The notes below the pieces were generated by a model. The model saw only the letters and a program-made list of their open reading frames with translations. It searched no databases and was not told where the DNA came from. A stretch of 33,033 bases of DNA from an uncultured Bacteroidales bacterium (GTDB lineage Bacteria; Bacteroidota; Bacteroidia; Bacteroidales; F082), in NCBI GenBank assembly GCA_900317055.1, contig ONFF01000029.1, positions 1-33,033 on the forward strand, written 5' to 3'. Positions 4,255 through 26,539 of this stretch are shown here, in pieces (the first letter of the stretch is position 1; the number at the start of each line of letters is the position of its first letter). Position numbers and translations under genes: made by a program.

Positions 4255-4291
4255 GTGAAAGAGAGAAGTTAAACAATTAAACAGAGAAAAA

Positions 4292-5080: not shown

Positions 5081-5084
5081 AGAC

Positions 5085-5154: not shown

Positions 5155-5212
5155 GACTCAAAGCATAATCAACAATTAAACAATAATCAATCAACAATTA
5201 AACATTTCAACT

Positions 5213-5872: not shown

Positions 5873-5883
5873 TCCCTGCGGAC

Positions 5884-6663: not shown

Positions 6664-6674
6664 GAGCGCAAAGC

Positions 6675-6792
6675 GGGTTTTCGAATCCCCCTTGCCCCCT
6701 TAAAAGGGGGACGCGCAAAGCGGCGCAAAATATGCGTCCGGTAGGCGTCCCCCTCTTGAGGGGGGGACGAAGGGCGGGGGAGACGAAGACCC
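6675..6792. repeat. Nested C/G-rich inverted repeat after crt
   Basis: The outer arms at 6675-6691 and 6776-6792 pair with about three mismatches over 17 bp (GGGTTTTCGAATCCCCC type). The inner arms AGGGGGACGC at 6705-6714 and GCGTCCCCCT at 6745-6754 are perfect. A GCGCAAAGCGG unit occurs twice (6666-6676 and 6713-6723). The element fills most of the 154 bp between crt and the FISUMP gene. C/G-run repeats of this sort are common between Bacteroidales genes. Confidence 0.75.
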
Positions 6793-6817
6793 GAAATGAA
6801 CGAATTATGAATCATAA

Positions 6818-7402: not shown

Positions 7403-7477
7403 TAACAAGCCCATTAAAAACACACATTTTAATCCTGAATATGTAAACAAAATCTTTAATCTTTAAATCATACAAAT

Positions 7478-8314: not shown

Positions 8315-8316
8315 TT

Positions 8317-8421
8317 TGCCTCTGGCTACTGGCCTCTGGCTACTGTCTGCTTGAATAAAAGAGTGAGGTCCTACCTTATCATAAAGCTGCCAGAAGCCAG
8401 GAGCCAAGAGCCAGAAGCCCA
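8317..8421. repeat. Inverted repeat of CTGGCT units between hbd and bcd
   Basis: The left arm, about 8317-8351, and the right arm, about 8386-8420, pair at about 25 of 35 positions. Both consist of CTGGCT/AGCCAG units about every 8-10 bases, separated by a 35-base centre. The architecture (short tandem units in inverted arms, starting at a stop codon and ending at the next start) is the same as at 4154-4254, where the unit is TTAGC. There is no T-run. It fills nearly all of the 118-bp gap. Confidence 0.75.
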
Positions 8422-8432
8422 AAAAAAGAAAA

Positions 8433-9572
8433 ATGGATTTTAGTTATTCAAAGACAGAACAACTCTTCCTGCAGATGATCCGTTCGTTTGCGGAGAATGA
8501 AGTAAAGCCTTTGGCCGCCGAAGTCGATGAGCAGGAGCGCTTCCCGATGGAGACCGTCGAAAAGATGGGCAAACTCGGACTGATGGGCATCCCGATTCCG
8601 AAGCAATACGGTGGCGCAGGCGGCACGGTCCAGATGTACATCATGGCCGTCGAAGAACTGTCGAGAGTGTGCGCCACCACAGGCGTCGTCCTCTCGGCCC
8701 ACACCTCTTTGTGCATGGCTCCCATTCTGGAGAACGGCACCGAGGAACAGAAGATGAAGTATCTGCCCAAACTCGCCTCGGGTGAATGGATTGGCGCTTT
8801 CGGTCTGACCGAGCCCAACGCCGGCACCGATGCCGCCATGCAGCAGACGACCGCCGTCGACGCTGGCGACAAGTGGATCCTGAACGGCACGAAGATCTTC
8901 ATTACCAACGCATCCTATGCCAATGTGTTCATTGTCATGGCCATGACGGACAAGTCAAAGGGCACGAAGGGTATCTCTGCCTTCATCGTCGAGAAGGGCA
9001 TGCCTGGCTTCAGCATCGGCAAGAAAGAGCTGAAGATGGGTATCCGCGGCAGCGCGACCTGCGAGCTGATTTTCGAAAACTGCGAAGTGCCGAAGGAAAA
9101 CCTCCTTGGCCAACTCGGCAAGGGCTTCAGCATCGCCATGAAGACCTTGGACGGCGGCCGTATCGGTATCGCCTCGCAGGCTTTGGGTATCGCTCAAGGT
9201 GCTATGGATGAGACCGTTAAGTACACCAAGGAACGCAAGCAGTTTGGCAAGGCCATCGCCCAGTTCCAGAACACCCAATTCCAGATGGCCGACCTCAAGA
9301 CGAAGGTCGAGGCTGCCCGTTTCCTCGTGCGCAGCGCCGCTTGGAAGAAAGACAATGGCATCCCGTATTCGGCCGATGCAGCCATGGCAAAACTTTTTGC
9401 CGCTGAAACGGCTATGGAAGTCACGACCAAGGCCGTGCAGTTCCATGGCGGTTATGGCTACACCCGTGAGTATCCTGTGGAGCGCATGATGCGTGACGCC
9501 AAGATTACGGAGATTTACGAAGGTACATCGGAAGTCCAGCGCATGGTCATTGCCGGTCATTTGTTCAAATAA
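8433..9572 (+). CDS. bcd: Butyryl-CoA dehydrogenase (acyl-CoA dehydrogenase)
   Basis: This 379-residue acyl-CoA dehydrogenase has intact family signatures: FGLTEPNAGTDAA (FAD/substrate binding), WILNGTKIFITNA, RIGIASQALGIAQGAMD, and the C-terminal QFHGGYGYTREYPVERMMRDAKI. The catalytic base is Glu363 in IYEGTSE, the position used by short-chain enzymes. It should reduce crotonyl-CoA to butyryl-CoA. With etfB and etfA directly behind it (15 and 11 bp gaps), a Bcd-Etf complex is likely, possibly electron-bifurcating to ferredoxin as in Clostridium; bifurcation is inference only. Confidence 0.93.
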   Translation: MDFSYSKTEQLFLQMIRSFAENEVKPLAAEVDEQERFPMETVEKMGKLGLMGIPIPKQYGGAGGTVQMYIMAVEELSRVCATTGVVLSAHTSLCMAPILENGTEEQKMKYLPKLASGEWIGAFGLTEPNAGTDAAMQQTTAVDAGDKWILNGTKIFITNASYANVFIVMAMTDKSKGTKGISAFIVEKGMPGFSIGKKELKMGIRGSATCELIFENCEVPKENLLGQLGKGFSIAMKTLDGGRIGIASQALGIAQGAMDETVKYTKERKQFGKAIAQFQNTQFQMADLKTKVEAARFLVRSAAWKKDNGIPYSADAAMAKLFAAETAMEVTTKAVQFHGGYGYTREYPVERMMRDAKITEIYEGTSEVQRMVIAGHLFK

Positions 9573-9587
9573 TAGGAGGGAAGCAGT

Positions 9588-10370
9588 ATGAATATTATCG
9601 TTTGTATCAAGCAAGTTCCGGATACCACCGAAATCAAGATTGATCCGGTAAAGGGTACGCTGATTCGTGAAGGCGTTCCGAGCATCATGAACCCCGACGA
9701 CAAGGGCGGCCTCGAACTCGCCCTGCGTCTGAAAGACCAGTTCGGCGCCAAGGTCACCGTCATCTCGATGGGACCTCCTCAAGCCGATGTCATCATGCGC
9801 GAAGCCTTCGCCATGGGTGCTGACCGCGCCATCCTTCTCTCTGACCGTAAGTTCGCAGGCTCCGACACGCTGGCTACCTCGTATGCCATCTCCGGTCTCT
9901 GCCGCACTTTGGACTATGACCTCATCATCGCTGGCCGTCAGGCCATCGATGGCGACACCGCACAAGTGGGTCCCGAAATGGCCGAACACCTCGGTCTGCC
10001 TCAGGTCTCCTATGTCTGCGATGCCAAGTTACTCGACAATGGCAACCTGCTGGTCCACAAGGAGAACGAAGACAGTGTCCAAGTCCTCGAAGTGGAAGGC
10101 AAGTGCCTGCTGACCGTCCTCGCTTCCGCCTTTGAACCTCGTTACATGACCGTAAGCGGCATCGTTGAGGCCTACAACAGGGAAGTGGAAGTTTGGGGTG
10201 CCGACAAGATCGACTACGATGAAAACCGTCTCGGTCTGAGTGGCTCACCCACCAAGGTGTTCCAGTCGTTCCCGAAGGCCATGAAGGCCCCAGGCGAGGT
10301 TCACGAAGTGAGCGAAGAAGAAGCCGTCGAGCTGATTGTCAATAAACTGAAAGAAAAACATATCATCTAA
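9588..10370 (+). CDS. etfB: Electron-transfer flavoprotein beta subunit
   Basis: This 260-residue protein begins MNIIVCIKQVPDTTEIKIDP, the classic EtfB start. It carries GADRAILLSD, DLIIAGRQAIDGDTAQVGPEMAEHLGLPQ (AMP/FAD-binding region) and a C-terminal arm EEEAVELIVNKLKEK. A GGAGG-containing sequence lies 10 bases before the ATG. It pairs with EtfA to pass electrons to or from the adjacent butyryl-CoA dehydrogenase. No defect is visible. Confidence 0.95.
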   Translation: MNIIVCIKQVPDTTEIKIDPVKGTLIREGVPSIMNPDDKGGLELALRLKDQFGAKVTVISMGPPQADVIMREAFAMGADRAILLSDRKFAGSDTLATSYAISGLCRTLDYDLIIAGRQAIDGDTAQVGPEMAEHLGLPQVSYVCDAKLLDNGNLLVHKENEDSVQVLEVEGKCLLTVLASAFEPRYMTVSGIVEAYNREVEVWGADKIDYDENRLGLSGSPTKVFQSFPKAMKAPGEVHEVSEEEAVELIVNKLKEKHII

Positions 10371-10381
10371 AAGTTACAGCC

Positions 10382-11404
10382 ATGGAATTGAAAGATTATA
10401 AGAACGTATTCGTTTTCGCTGAACAGCGTGAAGGTAACATCCAATCCGTTGCCTACGAACTTTTAGGTAAAGCCCGCGACCTCGCCGACACCCTCGGGGA
10501 GAAGGTTGTGGCTATGTTGCTCGGTTATGGCATCAAAGACCAAGCCCAGAAACTGATTGAATTCGGTGCTGACGAGGTTATCGTCGCCGACTGCCCCGAA
10601 CTGAAAGATTACTTGAGTGAGCAATACACTCAGGTCGTTGACCAGATCATCAAAGAGCGTTGCCCCAACATCGTGCTCTATGGTGCTACTACCATTGGCC
10701 GTGACATGGCTCCGCGTATCGCTTCGCGTCTGAAGACCGGTCTGACCGCAGATTGCACTAAGCTCGAAGTCGTCAGCGACGAGAAGAGCAACGGCGAGCC
10801 GCAGTTCCGCATGACGCGTCCAGCTTTCGGCGGCAACCTGATGGCCACCATCATTTGCCCGAACACCCGTCCGCAGATGTCGACCGTGCGTCCTGGCGTG
10901 ATGCAAAAGCGTCAACGCCAAGAAGGCCGCCAAGGCGTGGTCACTGTCTTCGCGCCGAAGTTCGACACCAGCAAGTTCAAGGTGAAACTCGTTGAGACAA
11001 TCAAGGAAGACAAGGCCATGGTCGACATCGCTGATGCAAAGATCTTGGTCTCTGGCGGTCGTGGCGTCCACAACAAGGAAGGCTTCGACAAGTTGCAGGC
11101 TTTGGCCGATGTGCTTGGCGGACAGGTTTCGTCGAGCCGTGCCATGGTCGACAACGGCGTGATGCCTCACGAGCGTCAGGTCGGTCAGACGGGTAAGACC
11201 GTCCGCCCGAACCTCTACATGGCTTGTGGTATCAGCGGTGCCATCCAGCACTTGGCCGGTATGGAAGAGTCCGACTTCATCATCGCCATCAACAAGGACA
11301 AGTTTGCGCCCATCTTCAGCGTCGCCGACCTCGGCATCGTTGGAGACCTGCACAAGATTGTCCCCATGCTGACGGAGAGACTGAAGAAGGAAATCGAGAA
11401 GTAA
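10382..11404 (+). CDS. etfA: Electron-transfer flavoprotein alpha subunit
   Basis: This 340-residue protein has the EtfA N-terminal domain (NVFVFAEQREGNIQSVAYELLGKARDLA, IVLYGATTIGRDMAPRIASRLKTGLTADCT). The conserved FAD-binding C-terminal domain shows VSGGRGVHNKEGF, SSSRAMVDNGVMPHERQVGQTGKTV, YMACGISGAIQHLAGM and INKDKFAPIFSVADLGIVGD. It follows etfB by 11 bp and is the last gene of the butyrate cluster, since a strong hairpin follows 18 bases after its stop. Confidence 0.95.
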   Translation: MELKDYKNVFVFAEQREGNIQSVAYELLGKARDLADTLGEKVVAMLLGYGIKDQAQKLIEFGADEVIVADCPELKDYLSEQYTQVVDQIIKERCPNIVLYGATTIGRDMAPRIASRLKTGLTADCTKLEVVSDEKSNGEPQFRMTRPAFGGNLMATIICPNTRPQMSTVRPGVMQKRQRQEGRQGVVTVFAPKFDTSKFKVKLVETIKEDKAMVDIADAKILVSGGRGVHNKEGFDKLQALADVLGGQVSSSRAMVDNGVMPHERQVGQTGKTVRPNLYMACGISGAIQHLAGMEESDFIIAINKDKFAPIFSVADLGIVGDLHKIVPMLTERLKKEIEK

Positions 11405-13784: not shown

Positions 13785-13818
13785 AAAAAAAGGCCTGAAC
13801 CGAAGTCCAGGCCTTTTT
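13785..13818. terminator. Bidirectional terminator between convergent genes
   Basis: Arms AAAAAGGCCTG (13787-13797) and CAGGCCTTTTT (13808-13818) enclose a 10-base loop, with A-run and T-run on opposite sides. It can stop transcription from the + strand small gene and from the - strand NRPS gene, whose stop codon begins 2 bases beyond it. Confidence 0.88.
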
Positions 13819-13820
13819 GC

Positions 13821-16800
13821 TTAATCGAAGTAGCCGAACCCGCCGATAGTCACCAGCATCTGGTCGACATAGTCCCATGAGGTACTCGACCAACGGAAAC
13901 CTAGGCGATACAACACTTGCGTAGTGTATTGGTTATCAGTAGGAATCATCACGGCCTTTTGTCCGTGCGCCATGTCCTGATAGGCCAACAAGCTCGACAG
14001 ACGCTTGGCTTTCTCCGGGTCTTGCTTGGCGGCTTCAAGAGCCTCGTTGAAGACCTCATTTTCAACTTGTTGTGGTGCATTCCCGATTTGTGACAACTCA
14101 GCCAACACATCGCCGAAATGTACATAGTGGTTGTTGAAAGGATGGAACAGACAGCACGATTGCGGTGTTTCCGACAGCAACACGATGGCTTTGGCAACTT
14201 CGTTGATGGGGGAGAACTCCATGGGTGAGTCAGTCATTTCATAAGGATAGCACCCTAACATCTCATACACTCTGATGCGACCCATAGAGCTGTTGGTTTG
14301 GAAGTTGATTTGGAACTCGCCATCGGTAGAACGCGGCGCAAGGTTACCCACACGCATCACCTTAGCGTTAAGTTTGTGCAAGGCCACAGCATCGAGGACG
14401 ACACGCTCGGAGATGAACTTGGAATGGGCATATTGGTTGCCAAGGTTCTGGCCAAAATAGAGTTTTTGCTCAGTGTAGACTGTGTCCTCAGGCGGCATTC
14501 CATTGATGGACATGCCTGCAGTGCTGTAGGTCGAAATATGTATCAGCCTTGCATTGTTGAGCAGACAGAAGCGGACGCAATGCGATGCACCGCCAACATT
14601 GACATCCTCAATTTCAGTGCCTTTCGAGAAGTGCTTCACCACGGCAGCGCAATTGAACACGGTGTCCACTTTACCATCCACCTTGATTTCTTGGGTCACA
14701 TCGCCGTTGATGACGCGCAAACGATTGCCAAACAACTCGTTGTAGTTCTTACTGAAGTAATAATACAGCATACCTTTCAGGCGGCGTTCGGCCTTTTCCT
14801 CGTTCTCCGCCCTAACCATGCACCAAATGACAGGCACATCATCACGGTCAATGAGTTCCTTGAGTACATGGATGCCCAAGAAGCCCGTTGCACCCGTAAT
14901 AAGCGCATTGCCAATGGGTTGGCATTCGCCATCGCGGAATGCTTGAATGGTGTTGGACTCTAAAACGGTATTGATTGGACCATAGTTATAGTTGCGAGCC
15001 TCATCATCCTCATCGGCAGCACCACCTGCGAGGAAGTTAGCCAGCTGACGAGGTGTCGGGTTGGCAAACACATCGCCGTAAGCGATATGGTGACCACTCT
15101 TATCGGCCTCGATAATGACACGCGTTACCATGAGCGAGGTGCCGCCCAACTCGAAGAAGTTGTCAGTCGCGCCTATTTTGTCCATCGACAAAATGTCGCT
15201 GAAGATCTTGCAGAACAGTTTCTCAATGTCGTTAACCGGTGCCACATATTCGCGGTCGGCAGCCTGAATGACGGGGGCCGGCAATGCTTTGCGGTTCACT
15301 TTCTGGTTCTGATTCAGCGGAATACTGTCAATCTGCATCGTGGCCGCCGGAATCATGTAAGGAGGTTTCTGCTGGCCGATAAAGGCATTCAACTGCTTAA
15401 TGTCCACCTTTTCGTCGCTGACAATGTAGGCAGCGATATACTTACCACCATTCTCATAGTCAAAGGCTTGCACGGTCACATCCTTAATGCCTGGGAACTG
15501 TCGGATGACGGCTTCCACTTCCTTCATCTCAATACGGAAACCTCGGATCTTCACCTGTCCGTCCTTACGGCCAACAAACTGGATGTTGCCGTCGGAGAGA
15601 TAACGCACGATATCACCCGTGCGATACACTCTATCGTGTTTCGGATCGTCGCAGAAAGGATTCTTCAGGTAGGTCTCGGCGGTCTTTTCCGGACGGTTAA
15701 GGTAGCCTCGGCTCACCTGAGGTCCGCTCACCCACAACTCACCAGCCGCTCCAATGGGCAGTCTATTGAATTGCTTGTCAACGATATAGAGTCTCAAATT
15801 ATCCAAAGGCTTACCGATGGGGATGTCCAATTCGTAATCCTTCACCCAGTAATTCGTGGTGAAAATAGTGCATTCCGTCGGGCCATAGCCGTTGTACATC
15901 TTGTAGTTCGTCGGCGGGTTGAGTGCCGAGAGCTTTTCACCACCCACGGCAAAGCACCTTAATGAATGATTCTCAACATTGGTCGCAAACTGGTAACCCA
16001 CCTGCGTCGTGATGAACGAGTGGGTGATGCCTTGTGCGTTGAAATAGTCATTCAGGTCGGGCAGGTTGAGGCGGATATCTTCTCCGATGATGTGGACACA
16101 AGCGCCACAGGTTAGGGCGGGGTAGAGGTCCATCATGCATGCATCGAAGCCGTAACTTGCATAGGCGGCCACCTTGTCGTTGGCAGTCAGGCCATAATGC
16201 CGTTGGTACCAGTGGCAGAATGCCACAAGGTTGCGGTGCTCGAGTTGACAACCCTTCGGCGTGCCCGTTGAACCCGAAGTGTAAAGCATGATGAAGAGGC
16301 TTGAAGGCGAAATGTCAGCCTTTATTGGCTTCGCATCGGGCAGCGTGTCTATGTCTTTCGTCAGCAACACTTTACCTTGATATTCGTTGACGAGAGGACG
16401 CAATTCCTCGTCAGCGATAAGCAACTTGGCATCGGCATCCTTCATCATAAAATTCAGACGCTCAGATGGATAACTTGGGTCGAGAGGCTGATAGGCGCAA
16501 CCGGCCTTCAACACACCCAACGATGCGATGGCCATCCATTCGCAGCGCGGAATGAGCACCGAAACCACATCCTCATTGCCAAGACCTTGCTTCACGAGGT
16601 AATTGGCAATACGCTCCGAAATCTCGTCAATCTCACGATAAGTAAACTGCTTGTCGTGATAGACAACAGCCAAATTGTCGGGTGTTTCTGCAACCTGGCG
16701 GCGGAATAATGAGATGATGGTCTGTGTGTCGTCGTAAGGCACATCAGTTTGGTTGAAGCCATCAAGAACGGCAGTTTGTTCGGCATCCAGCAACGACACT

Positions 16801-19800
16801 TGCTGCAACTTCATCTCTGGCTGACGAATGAAAGCATTCACTGCATTGCAGACCGATTGGGCCAAATGCTGCATCAGGTCGTGGCTGTAGCGTCCGTTGT
16901 CATATTGTACACAGACACAGGGTTGATCCGTCTCATCATTAGTAATGTAGAAAGCGATACGGAACTTTGGCACATCCAACTCAAGACTCTCAACCTCAAG
17001 CGTTTGACCTTTGCAAACATAGTTACTGACCACACCCACTTGGTAGGCAAACATGATTTCAGCCGAGAGGTCGTAGTCGTTGGCGATTTGCGCAAAAGGA
17101 TAGTTTTCATGCCGCAAGGTCTCGTCAAAATTCTTACTAGTCTCGTTCAAGAACTCCATTACACTTTGTTCCCCAATAGTGGCGCTCAATGCTAATGTGT
17201 TGACGAACATGCCAATGGTGTTGCTGATACGGAGGTCCGAACGACCGTTGCTGATGGTAGTGATGCAGAGTTGCTCGTTGTTGGTGAAACGCGAAAGCGT
17301 ATAAAAAACTGCAGCAAGGGTGAGGTGGGCTGGCGTGAGGTTATGCAGACGGCAGAAGTTCTCAACCGCATTGAAATCCAGCTTTCCGATGACCGTTTCT
17401 GTGACACCTTGCTCCTTTGGATTGGTCAGGTCTGACGGAACCTCTGTCACACCTTCCACCTTACCCAGACGCTCTTGGAAGAAGTCTTTGGCAGCAGTGT
17501 GTTCTTCACTGTTTTCGGATGCTTTCTCGGCAGCGACAAAGTCGGCATAACTGAATGTTTCGACTTCAACCTCCTTGCCATTCATCAAGTCGCAAAGCTG
17601 GTTCATGAACAGGTCGAATGAGCCACCGTCGAAGACAAGATGGTGCACATCGGCCAAAAGGTAAACCCACTTCTCGGTGGTGACAATTTCCATGTGATAG
17701 AGCGGACCAAGTCTCAAGTTGAACGGCTTGACAAACTCCCGTTTGTATTGTTTGAAATCCGCCTCGCTATACTGACTCTTCACAATTTCGATAGTTTGAT
17801 CCAAGTCAACGGTTTGAATGATGTCAGAACCCGAACTTCCAAAATGAGCCCGCATCTGAGGATGCGCCTTAATGACGGTCTCCACGGCTTTTGCGAGCAG
17901 TGAGATGTCGGTATCCTTTGGGAAACGCACCAACGAAGGAATGTTATACAAGGTGGACTCTGGCTGCTTCATGCACTCCACATAAACACCCATTTGCGCA
18001 TAGGACAAGGGTATGTTACTCAATTCGGCATGTTTCTCCTCGCCAATCTCTTGTTTTCCAGTATCTTCGCTCATCAATTTGGCCAAAATCTCGTTCTCTA
18101 TGCTTTGCACCGTGCCGGTCTTGGCTAAAGTCTTGGAGTCCAATGTCACGCCAAAACGCTTGTTGATTTGGATGGCCAACTTGATGGCCATGATAGAGGT
18201 GAGTCCTGCATAACCCAAAACGGTAGTAACGCCAAAATTCTCGTTTCCAACGATTTGTGCGATAATGGCATGGATTTCCTTCTCCAACACATTCATCGGA
18301 ACATTGCCTCCCTCTTGGATAGCTGATTCAGCGGGCTTTTCGGGTTTCGGCAATGCCTTTTTGTCTACCTTTTGGTTCTGGTTCAAGGGAATACGGTCAA
18401 TCTGCATCGTCACGGCGGGAACCATGTAAGGTGGTTTCTCATCCATGATAAACGCATTAAGTTTTTGGATATCAACTTGTTGTTCGCTGACAACATAAGC
18501 TGCGATGAACTTTCCACCGCTTGGTTCATCGAAGGCTTGAACGGTGACCTCCTTGATCCCAGGGAATTGTCTAATAACGGCTTCTACCTCTTTCAATTCG
18601 ACACGGAAACCACGAATCTTCACCTGACCGTCCTTACGCCCAACAAACTCAATATCGCCAGAAGGCAGATAACGCACGATGTCGCCAGAGCGATAGACGC
18701 GATTGTATTTCTCCTCTTTGTCAAAAGGATTCTCGAGGTAGACTTCTGCAGTCTTTTCGGGACGGTTGAGATAGCCTCGCGTCACCTGTGGAGAAGCCAC
18801 CCAGAGTTCACCAGAGGCACCCACGGGCAGACGATGTCCATATTTATCAACGATATAGCACTTGATGTTGCGTTGTGCCTTGCCGATAGGAATGTTCTTG
18901 CGTTCCTCGGTCACATCAAAATTGGTGACATAACAAATGGACTCCGAAGGACCGTAGCCGTTAGCTACCACATAATTCTGAGGCGGCACCATAGAAGGCA
19001 ACTTTTCGCCACCCGTCAACAGGCGTTGCAGCGACTTGCACTCGAAATTGGTGGCAAACTGATAGGCCACTTGCGTCGTCATGAAGGAGTGCGTGATGCC
19101 ATTTTGCTCGAAATAGTCGTTCAAGGCCATCAAGTCGAGACGGATGTCTTCAGGAATGATGTGAAGCTCTGCGCCAATGGTCAAACTACCAAACAGTTCC
19201 TCAATTGATGCATCGAAACCAAAACTGGCATATGCTGCAATCTTGCTTTGCTCGGAAATGTTGTGACAAGCTTGGTGCATCAAGCAGAAAGCCACCACAT
19301 TACGGTGCTCGATTTGACATCCTTTAGGAACTCCAGTGGTGCCCGAAGTGTAAATCATAGTCATAAGGCTGTGCGCCGTAGGTGGGGTGATTTGCACATT
19401 TGTTTCAACGCTTTGGTTGAGGTCACGGGTGAGCAACACCTCGCCATGGTAAAACTCCACAAGCGGTAGCAACTCTTCATCGGCAATGAGCAATTTGGTG
19501 CCAGAATCCTTGATCATAAACTCCAATCGCTCGGTGGGATAGGACGGATCCAAAGGCTGATAGGCACAACCAGCCTTAAGTACACCTATGGAGGCAATGG
19601 CCATCCATTCGCAGCGCGGAATCAAAATGGCCACCACATCCTCGTTACACAAACCTTTGGCAGCTAATTGCTTGGCAATCTTGTCGCTGAGTTCGCCAAG
19701 TTCACGATAGGTGTATTGCTTGTCCTTGTAAACCACAGCCACTTTGTCGGGATGTTGCTCCACCTGTTTATTCAACATTGAGACGATGGTTTGGCTCTCA

Positions 19801-21083
19801 TCGTATTGGAAATCAGTTTCATTGAAACTATCCAAAAGACCTTGCTGTGCTTCCGAAACAACATGAATCTCTTTCAAAGGCATATTCATGTCAAGCATTT
19901 GGTTTATGACGGTCTCAAAACTCTCCAGCAATTGCTCGACAAAAGTTTCAGAATAACGGTGTGCATGATAGGAAAAGATTGCGTGAAAGCCTTCATCGGT
20001 TTGGAAAAGTTGAAACTCCAAAGGCTGGTTGGTCGTGTTGTCGGCCAACTGCTCAATGGTTAATAATTTATTGTTCAACTTCAAGTCACGGAACAGTTTT
20101 CCTTGATACACAAACATTTGATGCGTTTCAATTCCTTGCTCTCCACAAAAATCGGCATAGGAATACAGCGCGTGTTTGCGGGTTTCCTTCGTGGTTAATG
20201 TACCTTGTTCAAGCAAGTCGCCCACGGTCATATCGTCCTTAATGTTGAAGTAGGCAGGCACAGTGCTCACATACATGCCAAGGCTTTGGGTTAAATGGTA
20301 GTCGCCACGACCATGCCAAATGGTGGAAAACAGCACTTGCTCATCGCCCGTGTAACGCGACATCAGAAGGGCATATGCCGAAGTGAAGTAGCCGCCCAAA
20401 CCCACATTGTTTTCCTTGCAAAATCTCTCGATGGCCTTTGCATCCACTTTCAGCTGCCTTTCGATGGTGTTGCTGCGGAAAGCCGTTTCATCCAAATCGG
20501 GCTGCAAAAGGGTATCCACCTCGTCGCAAAAGAAGTGTTCACGATACCAATTTTGGTCGTTTTTCCAAAGCTCTCCTTGCCGTTGCTGGTATTCATCGAG
20601 CGCGAAATCAATGGATGAAACAGGCTCGTTGTCAACGGGTTTCCCTTGATAGGCATTGTCAATATCTTGCAACAAAATCCGAAATGAGGCTCCATCGAAA
20701 ACGATGTGGTGGAACTGGAAATAGATATATTTGGCCTCAGACGAACTCAACAGCTTGAAATAGAGCAGTTGGCTACCGTCAAAAGCCATCTTCTTGTAAA
20801 GTTTCGGCTTCTCGGCTTCAATGTCATTGACGGCTTCTATCTGAATATCGAATTCTTGTGCTTCAATATATTGCTCCGGGATGCCTTCTTCGTTCACTTT
20901 CACACGACAATTGGCGTAAGGGTGAGCCTCCAAAGCCTTGAGAATGGCCATTTTAAGCCGTTCAAGGTCAATGTCTTTGCTAAGGGTGAAAAGATAAGAA
21001 AGTTGGTACAAGTCGCTTTCCGGATTGTTCATACACTCCGCATATATGCCGACTTGGGATTGAGTTAATGGTGCGGTTTTCAT
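13821..21083 (-). CDS. Dimodular NRPS, C-A-T-C-A-T-reductase
   Basis: This 2420-residue synthetase has, in order: condensation domain 1 (HHIVFDG at 125-131), adenylation 1 (YTSGTTGVPKG from 578, NGYGPSE from 708, YRSGD near 798, NQNQKVDKK near 901), carrier 1 (Ser963 in AGLTSIM), condensation 2 (HHLVFDG at 1147-1153), adenylation 2 (YTSGSTGTPKG from 1601, NGYGPTE from 1731), carrier 2 (Ser1983 in LGGTSLM) and a terminal NAD(P)H thioester reductase (GATGFLG at 2064-2070, YAHSK at 2218-2222). All core motifs look intact. A reductase instead of a thioesterase predicts release as an aldehyde or alcohol; dipeptide aldehydes of this type can cyclise to pyrazinones, as reported for gut NRPS clusters. 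A condensation domain before the first adenylation domain suggests N-acylation of the first residue. Substrates are not assigned. No phosphopantetheinyl transferase is in the window. The porin gene lies 6 bp upstream. Confidence 0.95.
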   Translation of the reverse strand: MKTAPLTQSQVGIYAECMNNPESDLYQLSYLFTLSKDIDLERLKMAILKALEAHPYANCRVKVNEEGIPEQYIEAQEFDIQIEAVNDIEAEKPKLYKKMAFDGSQLLYFKLLSSSEAKYIYFQFHHIVFDGASFRILLQDIDNAYQGKPVDNEPVSSIDFALDEYQQRQGELWKNDQNWYREHFFCDEVDTLLQPDLDETAFRSNTIERQLKVDAKAIERFCKENNVGLGGYFTSAYALLMSRYTGDEQVLFSTIWHGRGDYHLTQSLGMYVSTVPAYFNIKDDMTVGDLLEQGTLTTKETRKHALYSYADFCGEQGIETHQMFVYQGKLFRDLKLNNKLLTIEQLADNTTNQPLEFQLFQTDEGFHAIFSYHAHRYSETFVEQLLESFETVINQMLDMNMPLKEIHVVSEAQQGLLDSFNETDFQYDESQTIVSMLNKQVEQHPDKVAVVYKDKQYTYRELGELSDKIAKQLAAKGLCNEDVVAILIPRCEWMAIASIGVLKAGCAYQPLDPSYPTERLEFMIKDSGTKLLIADEELLPLVEFYHGEVLLTRDLNQSVETNVQITPPTAHSLMTMIYTSGTTGVPKGCQIEHRNVVAFCLMHQACHNISEQSKIAAYASFGFDASIEELFGSLTIGAELHIIPEDIRLDLMALNDYFEQNGITHSFMTTQVAYQFATNFECKSLQRLLTGGEKLPSMVPPQNYVVANGYGPSESICYVTNFDVTEERKNIPIGKAQRNIKCYIVDKYGHRLPVGASGELWVASPQVTRGYLNRPEKTAEVYLENPFDKEEKYNRVYRSGDIVRYLPSGDIEFVGRKDGQVKIRGFRVELKEVEAVIRQFPGIKEVTVQAFDEPSGGKFIAAYVVSEQQVDIQKLNAFIMDEKPPYMVPAVTMQIDRIPLNQNQKVDKKALPKPEKPAESAIQEGGNVPMNVLEKEIHAIIAQIVGNENFGVTTVLGYAGLTSIMAIKLAIQINKRFGVTLDSKTLAKTGTVQSIENEILAKLMSEDTGKQEIGEEKHAELSNIPLSYAQMGVYVECMKQPESTLYNIPSLVRFPKDTDISLLAKAVETVIKAHPQMRAHFGSSGSDIIQTVDLDQTIEIVKSQYSEADFKQYKREFVKPFNLRLGPLYHMEIVTTEKWVYLLADVHHLVFDGGSFDLFMNQLCDLMNGKEVEVETFSYADFVAAEKASENSEEHTAAKDFFQERLGKVEGVTEVPSDLTNPKEQGVTETVIGKLDFNAVENFCRLHNLTPAHLTLAAVFYTLSRFTNNEQLCITTISNGRSDLRISNTIGMFVNTLALSATIGEQSVMEFLNETSKNFDETLRHENYPFAQIANDYDLSAEIMFAYQVGVVSNYVCKGQTLEVESLELDVPKFRIAFYITNDETDQPCVCVQYDNGRYSHDLMQHLAQSVCNAVNAFIRQPEMKLQQVSLLDAEQTAVLDGFNQTDVPYDDTQTIISLFRRQVAETPDNLAVVYHDKQFTYREIDEISERIANYLVKQGLGNEDVVSVLIPRCEWMAIASLGVLKAGCAYQPLDPSYPSERLNFMMKDADAKLLIADEELRPLVNEYQGKVLLTKDIDTLPDAKPIKADISPSSLFIMLYTSGSTGTPKGCQLEHRNLVAFCHWYQRHYGLTANDKVAAYASYGFDACMMDLYPALTCGACVHIIGEDIRLNLPDLNDYFNAQGITHSFITTQVGYQFATNVENHSLRCFAVGGEKLSALNPPTNYKMYNGYGPTECTIFTTNYWVKDYELDIPIGKPLDNLRLYIVDKQFNRLPIGAAGELWVSGPQVSRGYLNRPEKTAETYLKNPFCDDPKHDRVYRTGDIVRYLSDGNIQFVGRKDGQVKIRGFRIEMKEVEAVIRQFPGIKDVTVQAFDYENGGKYIAAYIVSDEKVDIKQLNAFIGQQKPPYMIPAATMQIDSIPLNQNQKVNRKALPAPVIQAADREYVAPVNDIEKLFCKIFSDILSMDKIGATDNFFELGGTSLMVTRVIIEADKSGHHIAYGDVFANPTPRQLANFLAGGAADEDDEARNYNYGPINTVLESNTIQAFRDGECQPIGNALITGATGFLGIHVLKELIDRDDVPVIWCMVRAENEEKAERRLKGMLYYYFSKNYNELFGNRLRVINGDVTQEIKVDGKVDTVFNCAAVVKHFSKGTEIEDVNVGGASHCVRFCLLNNARLIHISTYSTAGMSINGMPPEDTVYTEQKLYFGQNLGNQYAHSKFISERVVLDAVALHKLNAKVMRVGNLAPRSTDGEFQINFQTNSSMGRIRVYEMLGCYPYEMTDSPMEFSPINEVAKAIVLLSETPQSCCLFHPFNNHYVHFGDVLAELSQIGNAPQQVENEVFNEALEAAKQDPEKAKRLSSLLAYQDMAHGQKAVMIPTDNQYTTQVLYRLGFRWSSTSWDYVDQMLVTIGGFGYFD

Positions 21084-21089
21084 ATTAGA

Positions 21090-22412
21090 TTATTTTTTGT
21101 CTTGCCATGTGGTTGTATAAAGTTTTGGTGTAATGGACAACATCAGCCAACCCCAACTCATCCTTCGCCTTTCATCGAGTTGCTGTAGGGTGGCCATGGT
21201 GTCGGTACCAATCAAATAGGAGTAGCCTGCCGATAGTCTAATATCATCGGAGAAGGCATAACTGGCCTTGATCTCCAAATCGTGACCAAGGGTCTTTGAA
21301 GGAATTCTTTCCAGATTGGTCGTGATGGCATAATAATGGTACGATAAGTCAACATTCAACTTTTTGATTGGATTAATAGTGCCGCCGAAATATAGCATCT
21401 GAAGACCGGGCGTGTAGTTACCGACAAAACTGTCGAGGTAGAAAAAGTCCATCGCTCCATAAAAGTCGTGGTGCGAGCCATAAATGGCATTGAAGCCTCT
21501 GATTGTGTCGTGCAAGGCCATTCCTATAGCGCCATGAGGAGGCAACGCAAAAAACTTATCGCCACTCAAATAGTCATAGCCGGCATAGAGGGAATAAATA
21601 CCTGGGGAGTAAACCACTTTTGTGCTACCCATGAAAGCTCTGATAGGGACACCATCTTCCTGCTTGCCCATCTGGTAATAGAACGATCCCGTTAGTTTCC
21701 ATTGTTTGGGAGTAATAGTCAAATAAGTACCCAACAGCTGCTGGTAATAGGTGTTGGGGTGCTCTGTGTCAGTGCTTTGCATACCGACATTCATAAGCAA
21801 CAAAGACGCGCCGAACAACGATATTGGCGTATCATAGTGATACCAAAGTGTTTGCATCGACTTGTGAGGCTGAATGCCGTCAGAGTAATAGGTGTTGCCT
21901 GTATCAGGGTTGTCGGCGTTTTGGTTGTAGGATAAAATAAGGTGTACCTTGTGGCCGTAGCCTTCGTAGCCAAACTTCAGCACATCGTGGGTGGGGGCAG
22001 TCATTGTCCAATCATCATAACCCAAGATGCGTTCGTCGTCATAATTCAGAATCTGACGGCCGATTTTGGCAAAAAAGCCGTTTTCCGATTTCACCAAAGC
22101 CCAAGCTTCGGCAAGACCCAAACCACCAACAGCCTGACCCCAAACGCCCGCTTGTTTTGGCGAAAGCCGCAACTCGAGCCATGAACGCTTATAGTCGAAA
22201 TCAAGTTGGTATGAGCCTAAGATAAAATTGGCCATACGGTCGTTATCTATGCTGTCGGCCTTAAATCCTCCAATGCGTAGTTCGCCACGGGAATTCAATT
22301 TGGCACCTATTGTAAACTCGTTGTCGGCTTCCTGTGCTTTAAGTCCAATCGCAAACGATAAAGCTATCACCATGCAAAACCATTTTGCAGGTTGGTTGAA
22401 ATAGAGTTTCAT
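21090..22412 (-). CDS. Outer-membrane beta-barrel, alginate-export/porin-like
   Basis: This 440-residue protein has an N-terminal signal peptide (to about residue 26, ...IGLKAQ) followed by alternating beta-strand pattern throughout: GAKLNSRGELRIGGF, FDYKRSWLELRLSPKQAGVWGQ, FFAKIGRQILNYDDERILGYDDWTM, KLTGSFYYQMG, LNVDLSYHYYAI, IRLSAGYSYLIG. The KIGRQ..YDDERILG.DW segment is typical of alginate-export-like barrels of Bacteroidetes. It should sit in the outer membrane. Its start is 16 bp after the STAS gene stop and its stop is 6 bp before the NRPS start, so it probably shares their transcript. A role in releasing or taking up the NRPS product is conceivable but only inferred from position. Confidence 0.8.
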   Translation of the reverse strand: MKLYFNQPAKWFCMVIALSFAIGLKAQEADNEFTIGAKLNSRGELRIGGFKADSIDNDRMANFILGSYQLDFDYKRSWLELRLSPKQAGVWGQAVGGLGLAEAWALVKSENGFFAKIGRQILNYDDERILGYDDWTMTAPTHDVLKFGYEGYGHKVHLILSYNQNADNPDTGNTYYSDGIQPHKSMQTLWYHYDTPISLFGASLLLMNVGMQSTDTEHPNTYYQQLLGTYLTITPKQWKLTGSFYYQMGKQEDGVPIRAFMGSTKVVYSPGIYSLYAGYDYLSGDKFFALPPHGAIGMALHDTIRGFNAIYGSHHDFYGAMDFFYLDSFVGNYTPGLQMLYFGGTINPIKKLNVDLSYHYYAITTNLERIPSKTLGHDLEIKASYAFSDDIRLSAGYSYLIGTDTMATLQQLDERRRMSWGWLMLSITPKLYTTTWQDKK

Positions 22413-22428
22413 ATGTACTTAATTATGA

Positions 22429-22731
22429 TTATTGTATCTCAAAAAGGTCGATGAAGCCCGTCATCTTGAAGACTTCCTTGATTTCATCGTTGAGGTTCTT
22501 CAAAACGACATGGTTGTCTTTCGCCTTGGCACTTTTCAGCAAACCTAAAAGAATGCGCAAGCCGCTGGAAGCGATGTATTCCAACTTTGTGCAGTCGATG
22601 GTGATTTCCTTTCCGTTGAGTTCGTACAAAGGTTGCATGGCTTGTTCAACCTCCATAGCATGAGCAGTGTCGAGTTCGCCTTCAAGGGCAACGATGTACT
22701 TTCCTTCTAATTCTGTGATAGTTGTATTCAT
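22429..22731 (-). CDS. STAS-domain anti-sigma factor antagonist
   Basis: This 100-residue protein is a single STAS domain of the SpoIIAA/RsbV type. ALEGELDTAHAMEVEQ opens the fold and IDCTKLEYIASSGLRILL carries the phosphorylatable serine loop (Ser55/Ser56). Such proteins bind an anti-sigma kinase when dephosphorylated, releasing a sigma factor or other partner. A matching PP2C phosphatase/HATPase fusion is encoded just upstream on the same strand, beyond a terminator, and the porin and NRPS genes follow. I saw no convincing TAnnTTTG promoter in the 117-bp gap upstream. Confidence 0.9.
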   Translation of the reverse strand: MNTTITELEGKYIVALEGELDTAHAMEVEQAMQPLYELNGKEITIDCTKLEYIASSGLRILLGLLKSAKAKDNHVVLKNLNDEIKEVFKMTGFIDLFEIQ

Positions 22732-22848: not shown

Positions 22849-25047
22849 TCAACCGTATATTTTCTCCAATCGAAGAATGTTTTTGCCTTCAACGCGCTCG
22901 TAGTTGATGCTGTCCATCAGATTACGGACGAGCAGGATGCCCAAACCGCCGATGGGACGCTCATCTACCGTTAGCGTTGTATCGGCCTTGCTGACCGCTG
23001 TTGGGTCGAACTCGGCACCCGAATCGATGATGATGAAACGTATCCTTTCCTGATCAGCCTCAATAGTTACATTTATATCTCCCTCTGTGCCATGAGGATA
23101 GGCATATTCGATAACATTTGTTGCGGCCTCCTCAATGGCTAACTTAACCTTGTTGGCAAGCCCGCTTTCCAAGTTCAGGGTTGCTGTAGCCGACTTCACA
23201 AAAGCATTGAGCTTCGTGATTTCGCTCACCTTATTCATTATAAGAAGTGTGTCGCGGAAAATGACAGGCTTTTCCTTGGGCGTATATTGGATGGCCAGCA
23301 AAGTGAGATCATCGCTCTGTTCAGCACCATCGACGAATTCCGCAACTTTTTCCTTCATCTCATGGATAAGGAAATCAGGTGTAATAGATTTATCTTCAAC
23401 ACTTTTCCTCAAAATCGACTCTAAACGCTTTGCTCCAAACTGTTCGTGGCTTTCGTTCTTGGCTTCAGTCAAACCATCGGTAAAAAGGAACAAGGTTTCG
23501 TTAAGTGACAAGGTCATTTCTTGGACATCATAAAGCATGTCGTCCATTACGCCCAAAGGCAGATTGGGTTTGGCTTGGATGCTCCTAAAAGTTTTACTAA
23601 TGACATACGGAAGGTCGTGTCCAGCATTACTGAAGCGCAATCGTCCTGTGGGCAGGTCAAGCACACCGATGAAGAAGGTTACGAACATGTTCTGCTCATT
23701 GCGTTGGCAAGTAGTCTCATTCAATGCATGCATGATGCGCGCAGGATTGGTCTCGTGCGCTGATATTGAACGGAATAAGGTGTGTATAACAGCCATCACT
23801 AAAGCAGCAGGAACGCCTTTTCCACTCACATCACCGATACAGAAAAACAGTTTTTCGTCGCGGATGAAATGGTCGTATAGGTCTCCACCAACCATTTTAG
23901 CGGGGTCGAGCGAGCCGACTACATTGCAGTCATCTCGCATAGCGATTTCATCAACTTTGGGCAACATGTCCATTTGGATTTTCCGTGCGATATTCAACTC
24001 ACTGTCAATGTGTTCCCGTTCCAAAGTGGCTTGTTGCAGTTTGGAAATGTTCTTGGCGGAACGCTGAATGATGAAGGCGAGAATCAGCAGACCGGCCAAG
24101 GTCAAAAACAGGTTTCGCCAGCTCATTTTTAGCAAAGGCTCAAAAACCTCGTCATCGTAATTGACGACAGCGATTCTCCATGGTTTTAGGCTTTTTGGGG
24201 AACTGTAAAAAACACTACCCTTTGAGCCGTCCTCTTTGTCGATAAAGGACAAAAGCGTGGAATTTCCCGAAGAACTCACATGACGTTGCAGGCTGCTGTC
24301 GTTAATCATGGCCACAGTCTCTTTCGCAAGCTGGTGCGAGTTTCCGCTTTCCTTAGGACCGCAAATCAACTTGCCTTCACCCGAAATCAGGATGTCGTAG
24401 GAAGAAGGAAACATGTGTCTGGCATTCAGCATATTGCCAAGCCATTCAGATTCCAAATCAACACCAACGACACCTGCTATGCGTCCCGATGCATCATAAA
24501 CAGGAAAAGTATATGTGATAAGCGTCACATTCGGGTCGTCTTCATCTAAATAAGGTTCGCTCCAAAAAGAGGAGTCTTTTTCAACCGAAACGGTGAAATA
24601 TATGTTTTTGGAATAGTCATGCTCCTCAGAACCAAGTTGATATGTTTCAACCACCTCGCCCCGACGCACGGTATAAGGCTCAAACAGACGGCCCTTTTCG
24701 GGATAATAATCGGGCAACATAGCAATGCAGCAACCATCGAAATTTGGGTTTTGTTCGACGAAACGGCGTGTGACGGCAAACAAGGAATCAGGATATGGGA
24801 GGATCTGCTCGAATTCCCAGCGGCGGTTCCGAAGCGCAAGTTCCACATCCTCTAGCGCGTGTTTAGCAGACAAGGCTTTGACCACCAATTCCATCTCTGC
24901 ATTATTCTCCAAGTCGATTCGGATTTGATTGCGCGAAAAATACTGCTGGATGCCCGAAATCAATAGCATAAGTACCGCTGCTGTGATGAGAATAGCGATA
25001 CTGGCCTTGTTACGGACTTTTTTCGATGTAGTGCTCTTCTTGCTCAT
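22849..25047 (-). CDS. Sensor with PP2C phosphatase and HATPase domains (RsbU/RsbW fusion)
   Basis: This 732-residue membrane protein begins with TM1 (about 15-37), a large extracytoplasmic Cache-like sensor (about 38-310; FPVYDASGRIAGVVGVDL is typical), TM2 (about 312-328) and a short helix. A SpoIIE-type PP2C phosphatase follows with its metal-binding motifs: VGGDLYD (387-393), GDVSGKGVPA (405-414), NAGHDLP (474-480), FTDGLTEA (522-529), SDDLTLL (578-584). A C-terminal HATPase of the anti-sigma kinase type has an N-box EEAATNVIEYAY (639-650), DSGAEFDP (675-682) and GGLGILLVRNLMD (700-712). It thus joins in one chain the phosphatase and kinase of a partner-switching module; the nearby STAS protein is the natural substrate. 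It starts 6 bp after mnmE. Confidence 0.93.
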   Translation of the reverse strand: MSKKSTTSKKVRNKASIAILITAAVLMLLISGIQQYFSRNQIRIDLENNAEMELVVKALSAKHALEDVELALRNRRWEFEQILPYPDSLFAVTRRFVEQNPNFDGCCIAMLPDYYPEKGRLFEPYTVRRGEVVETYQLGSEEHDYSKNIYFTVSVEKDSSFWSEPYLDEDDPNVTLITYTFPVYDASGRIAGVVGVDLESEWLGNMLNARHMFPSSYDILISGEGKLICGPKESGNSHQLAKETVAMINDSSLQRHVSSSGNSTLLSFIDKEDGSKGSVFYSSPKSLKPWRIAVVNYDDEVFEPLLKMSWRNLFLTLAGLLILAFIIQRSAKNISKLQQATLEREHIDSELNIARKIQMDMLPKVDEIAMRDDCNVVGSLDPAKMVGGDLYDHFIRDEKLFFCIGDVSGKGVPAALVMAVIHTLFRSISAHETNPARIMHALNETTCQRNEQNMFVTFFIGVLDLPTGRLRFSNAGHDLPYVISKTFRSIQAKPNLPLGVMDDMLYDVQEMTLSLNETLFLFTDGLTEAKNESHEQFGAKRLESILRKSVEDKSITPDFLIHEMKEKVAEFVDGAEQSDDLTLLAIQYTPKEKPVIFRDTLLIMNKVSEITKLNAFVKSATATLNLESGLANKVKLAIEEAATNVIEYAYPHGTEGDINVTIEADQERIRFIIIDSGAEFDPTAVSKADTTLTVDERPIGGLGILLVRNLMDSINYERVEGKNILRLEKIYG

Positions 25048-25053
25048 AATCCA

Positions 25054-26469
25054 TCATTTACCGATGCAAAACCTTGAAAAGATAGTTCCCAATACCTCAT
25101 CGGTCGTAATCTCTCCTGTGATACTTCCAAGATAATGCAATGCTTGTCGCAAGTCTTGAGAAATCAAGTCGGTATGGATATTTATTTCAAGTCCTTGTTG
25201 AACTGATTTTAGACTATCAGAGGCATGAAGCAAAGCCTCATAATGCCGAATATTGGTGACCAATGTGGCGTCGGGAGCTGCAAGAGGCTGGCTGTGTTTT
25301 AATGCATTGTAAAGGTCATTGAGGCCGAATCCATGCTTGGCGGAAAGACAAATGACCATAATGTCGTCGTTGTCGAGGTCAAGACGAAGATCCCCCAACA
25401 GGGCTTCACCTTGGTCAACAATAGTATCCACCTTATTAATACATAGTATCAGTTGCTGGATTGACAAGTCCACTTTGGATCGGATGTCATTCGCAGCCGA
25501 AAGCATTGATTCATATCCAGTTGTGGCATCCAGCATACCGATAATGACATTGGCCTCGGCGATTTTCTTGTACGACCGCTCAATGCCAATTTTTTCTATG
25601 GTTTCATCGGTATTGCGAAGTCCAGCCGTGTCGATAAAACGGTAGAGTATTCCGTTGATATTCAGTGTTTCCTCAATGGTGTCGCGGGTGGTGCCAGCAA
25701 TGTCGCTTACAATAGCGCGGTCTTCGCCTAAAAGGGCGTTAAGTAAGGTGCTTTTGCCCGTATTGGTCTGGCCAACAATTGCCACAGGGATACCATTTTT
25801 GATGGCATTGCCTAGACGAAACGAGTCTTTCAGCTTATCGACATGAGTCAGCGTTTCTTGTAGCAAAGTCTTCAGTTGGCTACGGTCAGCAAACTCAACA
25901 TCTTCTTCAGAGAAGTCTAATTCCAATTCCATCAATGATGTCATTTCCAATAATTTGGAACGCATCATTTGAAGTTCTTTGGAAAATCCGCCTTTCAGCT
26001 GGTTGATGGCAATGCGGTGAGCGGCTTCACTCTCAGAGCTGATCAAATCCGCGATAGCTTCAGCCTGTGCCAGGTCGAACTTTCGATTGACGAAGGCACG
26101 GCAGGTGAATTCTCCGGCTTCGGCCATGCGGCAACCGTGAGCAATCAACAATTGCAGGAGTTTCTGCTGAATGAATACCGAACCGTGTACACTGATTTCA
26201 GCAGAATCTTCGCCCGTGAAAGAGTGGGGGGCTTTGAAGAAGGTCACCAACACCTCGTCAAGCATCTCGCCATGGTCTACGATGTGGCCATAATAGGCTT
26301 TATTTGCGACCATTTTTCCAATATCGAAAGCCTTGCCGTTCTGCATAAACAACTGACTTACAACTGGAAAAGATGCAGATCCTGAGACGCGTACAACTGC
26401 AATAGCACCCATCCCATGTGGGGTGGCAATGGCGCAGATGGTATCGGTATTTAAGATGTTGGTTTGCAT
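25054..26469 (-). CDS. mnmE: tRNA uridine-5-carboxymethylaminomethyl GTPase MnmE
   Basis: This 471-residue protein modifies the wobble uridine of certain tRNAs together with MnmG. Visible blocks are the folate-binding N-terminal domain (DTICAIATPHGMGAIAVVRVSG; EAGEFTCRAFVNRKFDLAQAEAIADLI), the G domain (Walker A GQTNTGKSTLL, DIAGTTRD, DTAGLR, NKVD) and the terminal FCIGK with its catalytic cysteine. Walker A has Thr where most MnmE proteins have Pro. I chose the ATG at 26467-26469; an ATG 15 bases upstream (giving 476 residues) lies inside a dispersed repeat and is less likely. The sensor/phosphatase gene starts 6 bp after its stop. Confidence 0.96.
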   Translation of the reverse strand: MQTNILNTDTICAIATPHGMGAIAVVRVSGSASFPVVSQLFMQNGKAFDIGKMVANKAYYGHIVDHGEMLDEVLVTFFKAPHSFTGEDSAEISVHGSVFIQQKLLQLLIAHGCRMAEAGEFTCRAFVNRKFDLAQAEAIADLISSESEAAHRIAINQLKGGFSKELQMMRSKLLEMTSLMELELDFSEEDVEFADRSQLKTLLQETLTHVDKLKDSFRLGNAIKNGIPVAIVGQTNTGKSTLLNALLGEDRAIVSDIAGTTRDTIEETLNINGILYRFIDTAGLRNTDETIEKIGIERSYKKIAEANVIIGMLDATTGYESMLSAANDIRSKVDLSIQQLILCINKVDTIVDQGEALLGDLRLDLDNDDIMVICLSAKHGFGLNDLYNALKHSQPLAAPDATLVTNIRHYEALLHASDSLKSVQQGLEINIHTDLISQDLRQALHYLGSITGEITTDEVLGTIFSRFCIGK

Positions 26470-26479
26470 AACAAAAACC

Positions 26480-26539
26480 GGCATTTCGACAGGCTCAATG
26501 ACCTTAGCTGTAGCAGGTCCCTGAGCCTGTCGAAGGGCC
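26480..26539. repeat. Inverted pair of the CTTCGAC/GTCGAAG repeat upstream of mnmE
   Basis: Units at 26480-26503 (core TTTCGACAGGCTCAATGACC) and 26516-26539 (core CCTGAGCCTGTCGAAGGG) are inverted copies separated by 12 bases. They match about 20 of 24 positions and can form a large hairpin. It is the second occurrence of the arrangement at 5085-5154. It lies between the DUF3127 gene and mnmE and overlaps the alternative mnmE start. Confidence 0.85.

Follow-up and report, generated by a model that had tools for sequence, protein, structure and literature searches.

A reductase-terminated dimodular peptide synthetase in a sensor-, STAS- and porin-encoding cassette of an uncultured Bacteroidales bacterium

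The window analysed here, a stretch of 33,033 nucleotides from an uncultured Bacteroidales bacterium (GenBank assembly GCA_900317055.1, contig ONFF01000029.1), encodes on its minus strand a nonribosomal peptide synthetase (NRPS) of 2420 residues (13821..21083), the last gene of a same-strand operon that runs from a sensor protein through a STAS protein and an outer-membrane porin to the NRPS. The NRPS is probably a working, aldehyde-making dimodular enzyme within a porin-bearing cassette that is gated by the sensor and STAS proteins, and in which the front of the product varies and its reactive end is nearly constant. The NRPS itself belongs to a known class; what is new is the cassette with its conserved sensory switch and the variable front half of the enzyme. 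An earlier note on this DNA had described the NRPS but not the conserved operon with its sensor and STAS genes, the porin resembling AlgE, the parallel with a methanogen, or the exchange among relatives of the first condensation and adenylation domains (C1 and A1).

Architecture, release chemistry and substrates of the NRPS

The NRPS gene has an ATG start and 2420 codons with zero internal stops, and its translation matches the Pfam families Condensation, AMP-binding and PP-binding twice each and NAD_binding_4 (thioester reductase) once, in the order condensation, adenylation, carrier, condensation, adenylation, carrier, reductase (C-A-T-C-A-T-R). This agrees with the dimodular architecture claimed in the earlier note, which gave no strand; the open reading frame (ORF) lies on the minus strand. 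According to the ORF list, the translation, Pfam and motifs, C1 (residues 1-430, 19794..21083, with HHIVFDG at residue 125) is followed by A1 (about residues 436-910, 18354..19778), the carrier domain T1 (about residues 930-1005, 18069..18296, with its serine in GLTSI at residues 960-964), C2 (about residues 1020-1440, 16764..18026, with HHLVFDG at residue 1147), A2 (about residues 1455-1935, 15279..16721), T2 (about residues 1945-2020, 15024..15251, with LGGTSL) and the thioester-reductase domain R (about residues 2040-2420, 13824..14966), all on the minus strand. Both modules and the single R domain thus stand on one polypeptide, as in the gut NRPSs for dipeptide aldehydes and pyrazinones, and the C-terminal R domain has the NAD(P) motif and the Ser/Thr-Tyr-Lys triad of the short-chain dehydrogenase/reductase type that defines the class of NRPSs with a terminal reductase.

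Relatives were drawn from a species-level genome collection, in which 415 stretches encode some relative of the NRPS (tblastn, E <= 1e-3); the best 79 loci of these, at 47-98% identity, were analysed. Full-length alignment took in 78 of 79 long ORFs, the window's included, with L054_6 left out as unrelated. The core motifs are intact in the window NRPS and in most of the 78 aligned proteins, which confirms the earlier claim of intact catalytic motifs: the phosphopantetheine serine is present in 78/78 at T1 (GLTSI) and in 78/78 at T2 (LGGTSL), and the window NRPS has A3 and A8 motifs in both A domains and GATGFLG, HISTYS and YAHSK in its R domain. The ratio of nonsynonymous to synonymous change (dN/dS) indicates strong purifying selection: measured against the closest full-length relatives, three proteins of 98, 96 and 95% identity, it is 0.043, 0.055 and 0.063, respectively, synonymous change being near saturation beyond them. 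Chance can be excluded for the NRPS, because the window protein matches many relatives over its whole length with E = 0 and dN/dS is low. That the locus is decayed and silent is very improbable: a relative, L126, does have a decayed sensor gene and has lost the NRPS at the same site, but the 2420-codon open frame, the intact motifs and the dN/dS of 0.04-0.06 in the window stand against decay, which selection largely contradicts.

The T-R part of the NRPS aligns with solved T-R structures, best with 6vtj (E 5.7e-94), presumably the T-R didomain from Methanobrevibacter ruminantium of Deshpande 2021, and also with that of AusA, the aureusimine synthetase (E 2.9e-53). This bears out the earlier proposal of a terminal reductase of the aldehyde-releasing kind, and a C-terminal aldehyde is, by sequence similarity, the likeliest release product. 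The aldehyde and the pyrazinone that the earlier note had offered side by side are not independent outcomes, because N-acylation of a dipeptide aldehyde takes up the amine that ring closure needs; according to a review, an N-acyl tail may stabilise a peptide aldehyde. A peptide alcohol made by four-electron reduction is quite an unlikely product, for while R domains are capable of two- or four-electron reduction (PMC12783407), the matched R domain with a known product, that of AusA, is described as making an aldehyde by two-electron release (PMC8210680).

With code positions placed by PheA numbering, the ten-residue specificity codes are DAEFLGGCYK for A1 and DAMFAGGIFK for A2. The solved A domain closest to A2 is LgrA A1, and since LgrA A1 loads Val, the substrate of A2 is by analogy most likely a branched aliphatic residue. 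Substrate prediction, which the earlier note had proposed for both A domains, gives a guess for A2 and none for A1; neither code is known to match a classical one. The 78 family proteins show 34 different codes at A1 and 11 at A2, with DAMFAGGIFK or DAMFSGGIFK at A2 in 51/78; therefore the position adjacent to the aldehyde appears mostly held, and the first position varies.

In the proposed mechanism, a phosphopantetheinyl transferase (PPTase) of Sfp/AASDHPPT type, encoded elsewhere in the genome, would arm T1 and T2; the genome holds one PPTase-family gene, of 201 residues, with an AASDHPPT_N match. A1 and A2 would load one amino acid each, a branched aliphatic one being most likely at A2. 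C1 may cap residue 1 with an acyl or aminoacyl group, C2 would make the peptide bond, and R with NAD(P)H would release the dipeptide as a C-terminal aldehyde, which would persist if capped and could close to a pyrazinone if its amine were free. Across relatives the cassette would yield a series of aldehydes with a near-constant reactive end and a variable front.

The C1 domain and the exchange of C1 and A1

The predicted structure of C1 (pLDDT 89.4) has a complete C fold, and with its active-site Asp and second His present in 71/71 proteins that include the region, C1 is probably catalytic. The model is nearest to the elongation C domain of LgrA (TM 0.88), with other elongation C domains (TycC, Txo2, SrfA-C) at about 0.80-0.82 and starter C domains at 0.74-0.80 (RzmA 0.77-0.79, CDA 0.74-0.80), and its sequence matches to solved C domains are remote and mixed, with E no better than 1.8e-11; the fold comparison speaks at best weakly against a lipid-starter type. 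The gate residue predicted by the RzmA rule (PMC7804268), F134, eight after the second His, would suggest a short acyl group if C1 is a starter, and was rejected as a criterion because C2 also has F at this position in 41/78.

Decay would be expected of a domain without use, yet between the window NRPS and its three closest relatives C1 is 95-99% identical; together with the His and Asp found in all 71 proteins, this argues against the alternative in which C1 is a structural remnant and an uncapped dipeptide aldehyde cyclises to a pyrazinone as with AusA. AusA itself begins without a C domain. The alternative is doubtful, yet several points speak for it: the release logic is AusA-like, with NF047350 (AusA) the top NCBIfam model for the window NRPS at 1146.8 bits, a score well below the equivalog cut-off of 2500; the C1 fold is nearest to that of an elongation C domain; and four relatives (L053, L092, L094, L098) begin inside C1, without its N-lobe with HHxxxDG, and keep the other domains. 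Three more N-terminally short NRPSs (L016, L017, L019), seven in all, are cut by contig ends, and no C1 N-lobe was found upstream of the four with nine N-lobe queries.

The front half of the NRPS varies far more than the rest. Against seven relatives (L056, L039, L015, L042, L087, L070, L040) identity of the window NRPS is lowest in C1 (33-36%) and the A1 core (61-63%), and higher in C2 (70-77%), R (83-92%), T2 (87-91%) and the A2 core (89-93%). Among 204 pairs with R domains 85-97% identical, which are not independent of one another, an identity more than 20 points lower than that of R was seen for C1 in 125 pairs, for A1 in 112 and for C2 in 30. When the 71 long-enough C1 sequences are grouped at 50% identity, they form one group of 56, one of 9, which is the minority type of the window, and six singles. 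The idea that C1 and A1 move strictly as a single unit was abandoned: L043, L048, L052 and L097 are 78% identical to the window in the A1 core and only 34-35% in C1, whereas L044, L071 and L091 have the window's C1 type (44-49%) and are only 60-61% identical in the A1 core. C1 and A1 are exchanged, jointly or separately, while A2-T2-R is kept, so that the product is predicted to have a variable front and a nearly constant aldehyde end.

Tandem NRPS genes occur in one genome or locus in several cases (L012 with L033, L013 with L032, L049, L056, L087); the second NRPS of L056, of 2903 residues, has no matching R domain.

The sensor, STAS and porin genes and their linkage to the NRPS

The sensor protein (22849..25047, minus strand) joins a Cache/PDC domain to a SpoIIE (PPM) phosphatase and an RsbW-like HATPase. 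In 51 sequences including the window's, the phosphatase motifs GGD and GDxSGK are present in 51/51 and the kinase boxes in 50/51, and the median identity to the window is 32% in the sensor part, 52% in the phosphatase and 53% in the kinase. The neighbouring STAS protein (22429..22731, minus strand), of the anti-sigma-factor-antagonist type, has a conserved SSGLR phospho-acceptor site, with Ser55 in 59/59 sequences and Ser56 in 58/59. A STAS protein with its phospho-acceptor, PPM metal-site motifs and RsbW-like ATP boxes are the components of partner switching of the RsbU/RsbV/RsbW type. The Cache domain would detect an extracytoplasmic cue, the sensor protein would both phosphorylate (RsbW-like) and dephosphorylate (PPM) the STAS protein, and the state of the STAS protein would gate NRPS production. 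Sensing of autoinducer-2 (AI-2) by the Cache domain, an idea prompted by PMC9540692, is not claimed, the five AI-2 residues being unmapped on the sensor protein. No relatives of the sensor protein were found in viral_contigs.

The outer-membrane beta-barrel (21090..22412, minus strand) ends 6 bases before the NRPS start and has 31 relatives 40-95% identical to the window protein. Its model (pLDDT 81.6) is closest to the alginate exporter AlgE (TM 0.61, E 2e-14), then to MOMP and Occ/Opd porins; the resemblance to AlgE is by fold alone, at 10-12% identity, the Pfam score for Alginate_exp (PF13372) being 21.6 bits, under the gathering cut-off of 25.2. An AlgE-like porin could pass the product or a precursor over the outer membrane, and judging from the model product export and precursor uptake are both possible. 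Its candidacy as a dedicated exporter was downgraded, and a strict porin role is disfavoured, because relatives retain the porin without the NRPS.

Linkage was scored on those 62 sources, out of 80 in all (the window plus 79 loci), in which a distinct NRPS of the family reaches 2150 residues, the remaining 18 being fragments or duplicates of proteins already included; 53 of the 62 have at least 4.5 kb upstream. Within 6 kb of the NRPS, STAS is found in 41/53, the sensor in 37/53, both in 37/53 and neither in 12/53; other genes in this range encode the porin (27/53), a PPTase (16/53), a MATE exporter (11/53) and an SNF-type symporter (11/53), the last three families being named from Pfam on examples. 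The linkage persists where the switch genes are on the opposite strand (L044, L071, L091, the first two outside the 53) or downstream of the NRPS (L089, L107). The genome of the window contains, in 3.5 Mb, two genes for STAS proteins and four for SpoIIE-domain proteins, which makes it very unlikely that the linkage in most loci arose by chance. Three loci from other Bacteroidales families, L138, L139 and L140 (NRPS 37-46% identical), have STAS, sensor and PPTase genes, with MATE in L138 and L140; the STAS protein of L139 is only 27% identical.

The outer flank of the cassette is formed by mnmE (25054..26484, minus strand), which lies outside the cassette and is adjacent in the closest relatives only (L038, L039, L041, L050, L065, L068, L076); it is adjacent in no other locus compared, many of these being short. 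No STAS gene was found at the mnmE site in 11 NRPS-free genomes. A twelfth genome, G140, supposed at first to be NRPS-free, proved to have the NRPS at a contig edge and was moved to the positives. L126, whose mnmE is 95% identical to the window's, has a decayed two-frame sensor stump (3438-4140) followed by the far flank, without STAS, porin or NRPS at the site, and by its sequence appears to be a recent loss of the cassette. The site is empty in L135, holds a porin fragment in L137, and has other or unidentified sequence after mnmE in L127, L129, L133, L134 and L136.

Co-occurrence extends to whole genomes. In the genus of the window, a close sensor orthologue (identity of 58% or more over 459 or more residues) is present in 21/25 NRPS-positive and 0/74 NRPS-negative genomes (Fisher p 8e-18, a value that ignores phylogeny and possible one-step loss of a single locus), where NRPS-negative means no match at E <= 1e-100, weaker NRPSs not having been looked for. 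At that threshold the NRPS occurs in 24/173 genomes of the family, confined to one of its 16 genera, that of the window, and at E <= 1e-150 in 10/393 genomes of an even sample of Bacteroidales, the window's own included. The earlier statement that such NRPSs are uncommon in Bacteroidales therefore stands for the order as a whole and holds less well in this lineage. Ruminant-study names are carried by 54/79 records (43 RUG or Tb.RUG, RUG standing for rumen uncultured genome; 10 RGIG with a ruminant species; 1 Reindeer), and the remaining 25/79 record titles state no source. NRPSs on plasmids are only distant relatives, at 26-29% identity among 25 listed of 2734 records.

Several observations weigh against the cassette as a fixed and functional unit. 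Neither STAS nor sensor was found within 6 kb of the NRPS in L042, L047, L057, L062, L079, L080, L088, L092, L098, L100, L102 and L108; for L057 and L108 the copy scored was a second NRPS, a short RsbW-like ORF is present in L079, and because the remaining loci of the 12 are real exceptions, the switch is not obligatory. The more distant L141-L146 (NRPS 26-36% identical) have neither STAS nor sensor, the NRPS of L142, L144 and L145 being at a contig end. Four NRPS-positive genomes (G054, G055, G101, G110) have no close sensor orthologue; distant sensor homologues at E <= 1e-60 occur in 51/99 genomes of the genus, and full-length ones, at 38-40% identity, in NRPS-negative G058, G075, G081, G119, G121 and G137 among others. 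L128, L130 and L132 have retained the porin but have none of NRPS, STAS and sensor. To these may be added the four truncated C1 domains, the A1 and A2 codes, which are not known to match any classical code, and the product and substrates of the NRPS, which are predictions from sequence. Confidence in a sensor/STAS-gated, aldehyde-making cassette was slightly lowered because C1 and A1 are not always a unit and because distant sensor homologues occur without the NRPS.

Sets of STAS, RsbW and SpoIIE proteins classically control sigma factors, and the sensor and STAS proteins might likewise control a sigma factor or another process, standing beside the NRPS only by shared descent of the locus. The absence of the switch from 12/53 loci and the distant homologues in NRPS-free genomes fit this explanation, which is nevertheless unlikely: the linkage outlasts changes of gene order, strand and outer flanks, recurs in three other families and is accompanied by co-loss; no sigma-factor family was found among the 29 window proteins scanned with Pfam, a search that covered neither the relatives nor the rest of the genome; and similar genes flank an archaeal NRPS (Leahy 2010, PMC2812497). 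Gating of the NRPS by the sensor and STAS proteins remains the preferred reading.

Two further features were seen in the neighbourhood of related NRPS genes. Short RsbW-like ORFs (146-162 residues) near the NRPS in L044, L051, L079 and L082, which were not scored as sensors, either replace the fused sensor protein or are its remnant. An SNF-family sodium symporter lies directly before the NRPS, at the place of the porin, in L051, L055, L067, L092, L098 and L116, and perhaps supplies an amino-acid precursor.

Related systems and other genes of the genome

The window NRPS resembles AusA/PznA of Staphylococcus in its two modules and terminal reductase, with T-R parts that align, and differs in its added C1, in a comparison confined to the synthetases. 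Human gut NRPS clusters are reported to make dipeptide aldehydes (Guo 2017); the window NRPS shares their module logic and reductive release, and differs in its Bacteroidales host and in having STAS, sensor and porin genes in its operon, the neighbours of the human clusters being outside this comparison. Ruminopeptin is a human gut case of a dipeptide aldehyde made by an NRPS (PMC12327764).

A parallel in gene content is mru0068 of M. ruminantium, an NRPS with two C-A-T modules described amid two serine phosphatases, an anti-sigma factor antagonist and a MatE exporter, with a separate PPTase cluster accompanied by the same kinds of regulators, for which its authors suggested environment sensing, control of NRPS expression and export (Leahy 2010, PMC2812497). 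The cluster is archaeal, unlike the window, and its release domain is given as a thioesterase in the text and as a thioester reductase in the legend of Figure S8 (PMC2812497). The likeness to the window is one of published description; in addition, the best T-R match of the window NRPS, 6vtj, is presumably from M. ruminantium. Archaea lack bacterial sigma factors; therefore the target of the switch genes in M. ruminantium must be something else. Only Leahy 2010 was found in the open-licence literature to combine at least three of NRPS, anti-sigma factor antagonist, serine phosphatase and MatE efflux, which does not establish absence from print.

A STAS protein acting below transcription is known in SypA of Vibrio fischeri, whose partner SypE, like the sensor protein of the window, combines kinase and phosphatase for a STAS partner in one protein; SypE has a receiver domain where the window sensor has Cache, and the output of SypE/SypA is polysaccharide (PMC10120452). 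It is possible, and rather less than probable, that the sensor and STAS proteins form a dedicated, sigma-independent switch that acts directly on the synthetase or its supply and has spread with NRPS genes among gut and rumen microbes, even across the divide between methanogenic archaea and bacteria, with C1 and A1 exchange giving lineage-specific variants of a community-wide aldehyde signal or protease inhibitor.

The earlier suggestion of novelty was overstated for the NRPS as such, as 5,346 NRPS clusters, 934 of them in Bacteroidaceae, had already been counted in 8,160 rumen genomes (Anderson and Fernando 2021, PMC8241843). That survey assigns 2.0% of the similarity-network edges of Euryarchaeota to Bacteroidota, and its account of the counted clusters names no product for them (PMC8241843). 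The occurrence of a switch-NRPS cassette in Bacteroidales and the exchange of C1 and A1 are not described in the accounts of such loci compared here. The cassette offers a defined recurrent unit (sensor, STAS, porin and NRPS, sometimes with PPTase and MATE) that could be expressed and switched, and links bacterial and methanogen NRPS loci through their neighbours. One peptide aldehyde is described as inhibiting cysteine and serine proteases, and the product could play a part in rumen proteolysis and in interactions between microbes.

Directly after the NRPS stop there is a terminator-like hairpin (13787..13818, minus strand) of 14 pairs with a T-rich tail, one such hairpin being found against a mean of 0.5 in shuffled sequences, which is suggestive only. 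Elsewhere in the same genome (L124:5148-8667, contig C27) lies a second SpoIIE-HATPase-STAS set, with the kinase and phosphatase as separate genes, directly followed by a RelA/SpoT-domain protein and an HD-domain protein; it is possibly a switch over alarmone synthesis. The window also holds a lysine-fermentation-like operon (2603-11404) encoding lysine 5,6-aminomutase, CoA transferase, enoyl-CoA hydratase, 3-hydroxyacyl-CoA dehydrogenase, acyl-CoA dehydrogenase and electron-transfer flavoprotein (ETF) and, near the contig start, genes for a KilA-N domain protein (1103-1945) and a MutS domain V protein (351-941).

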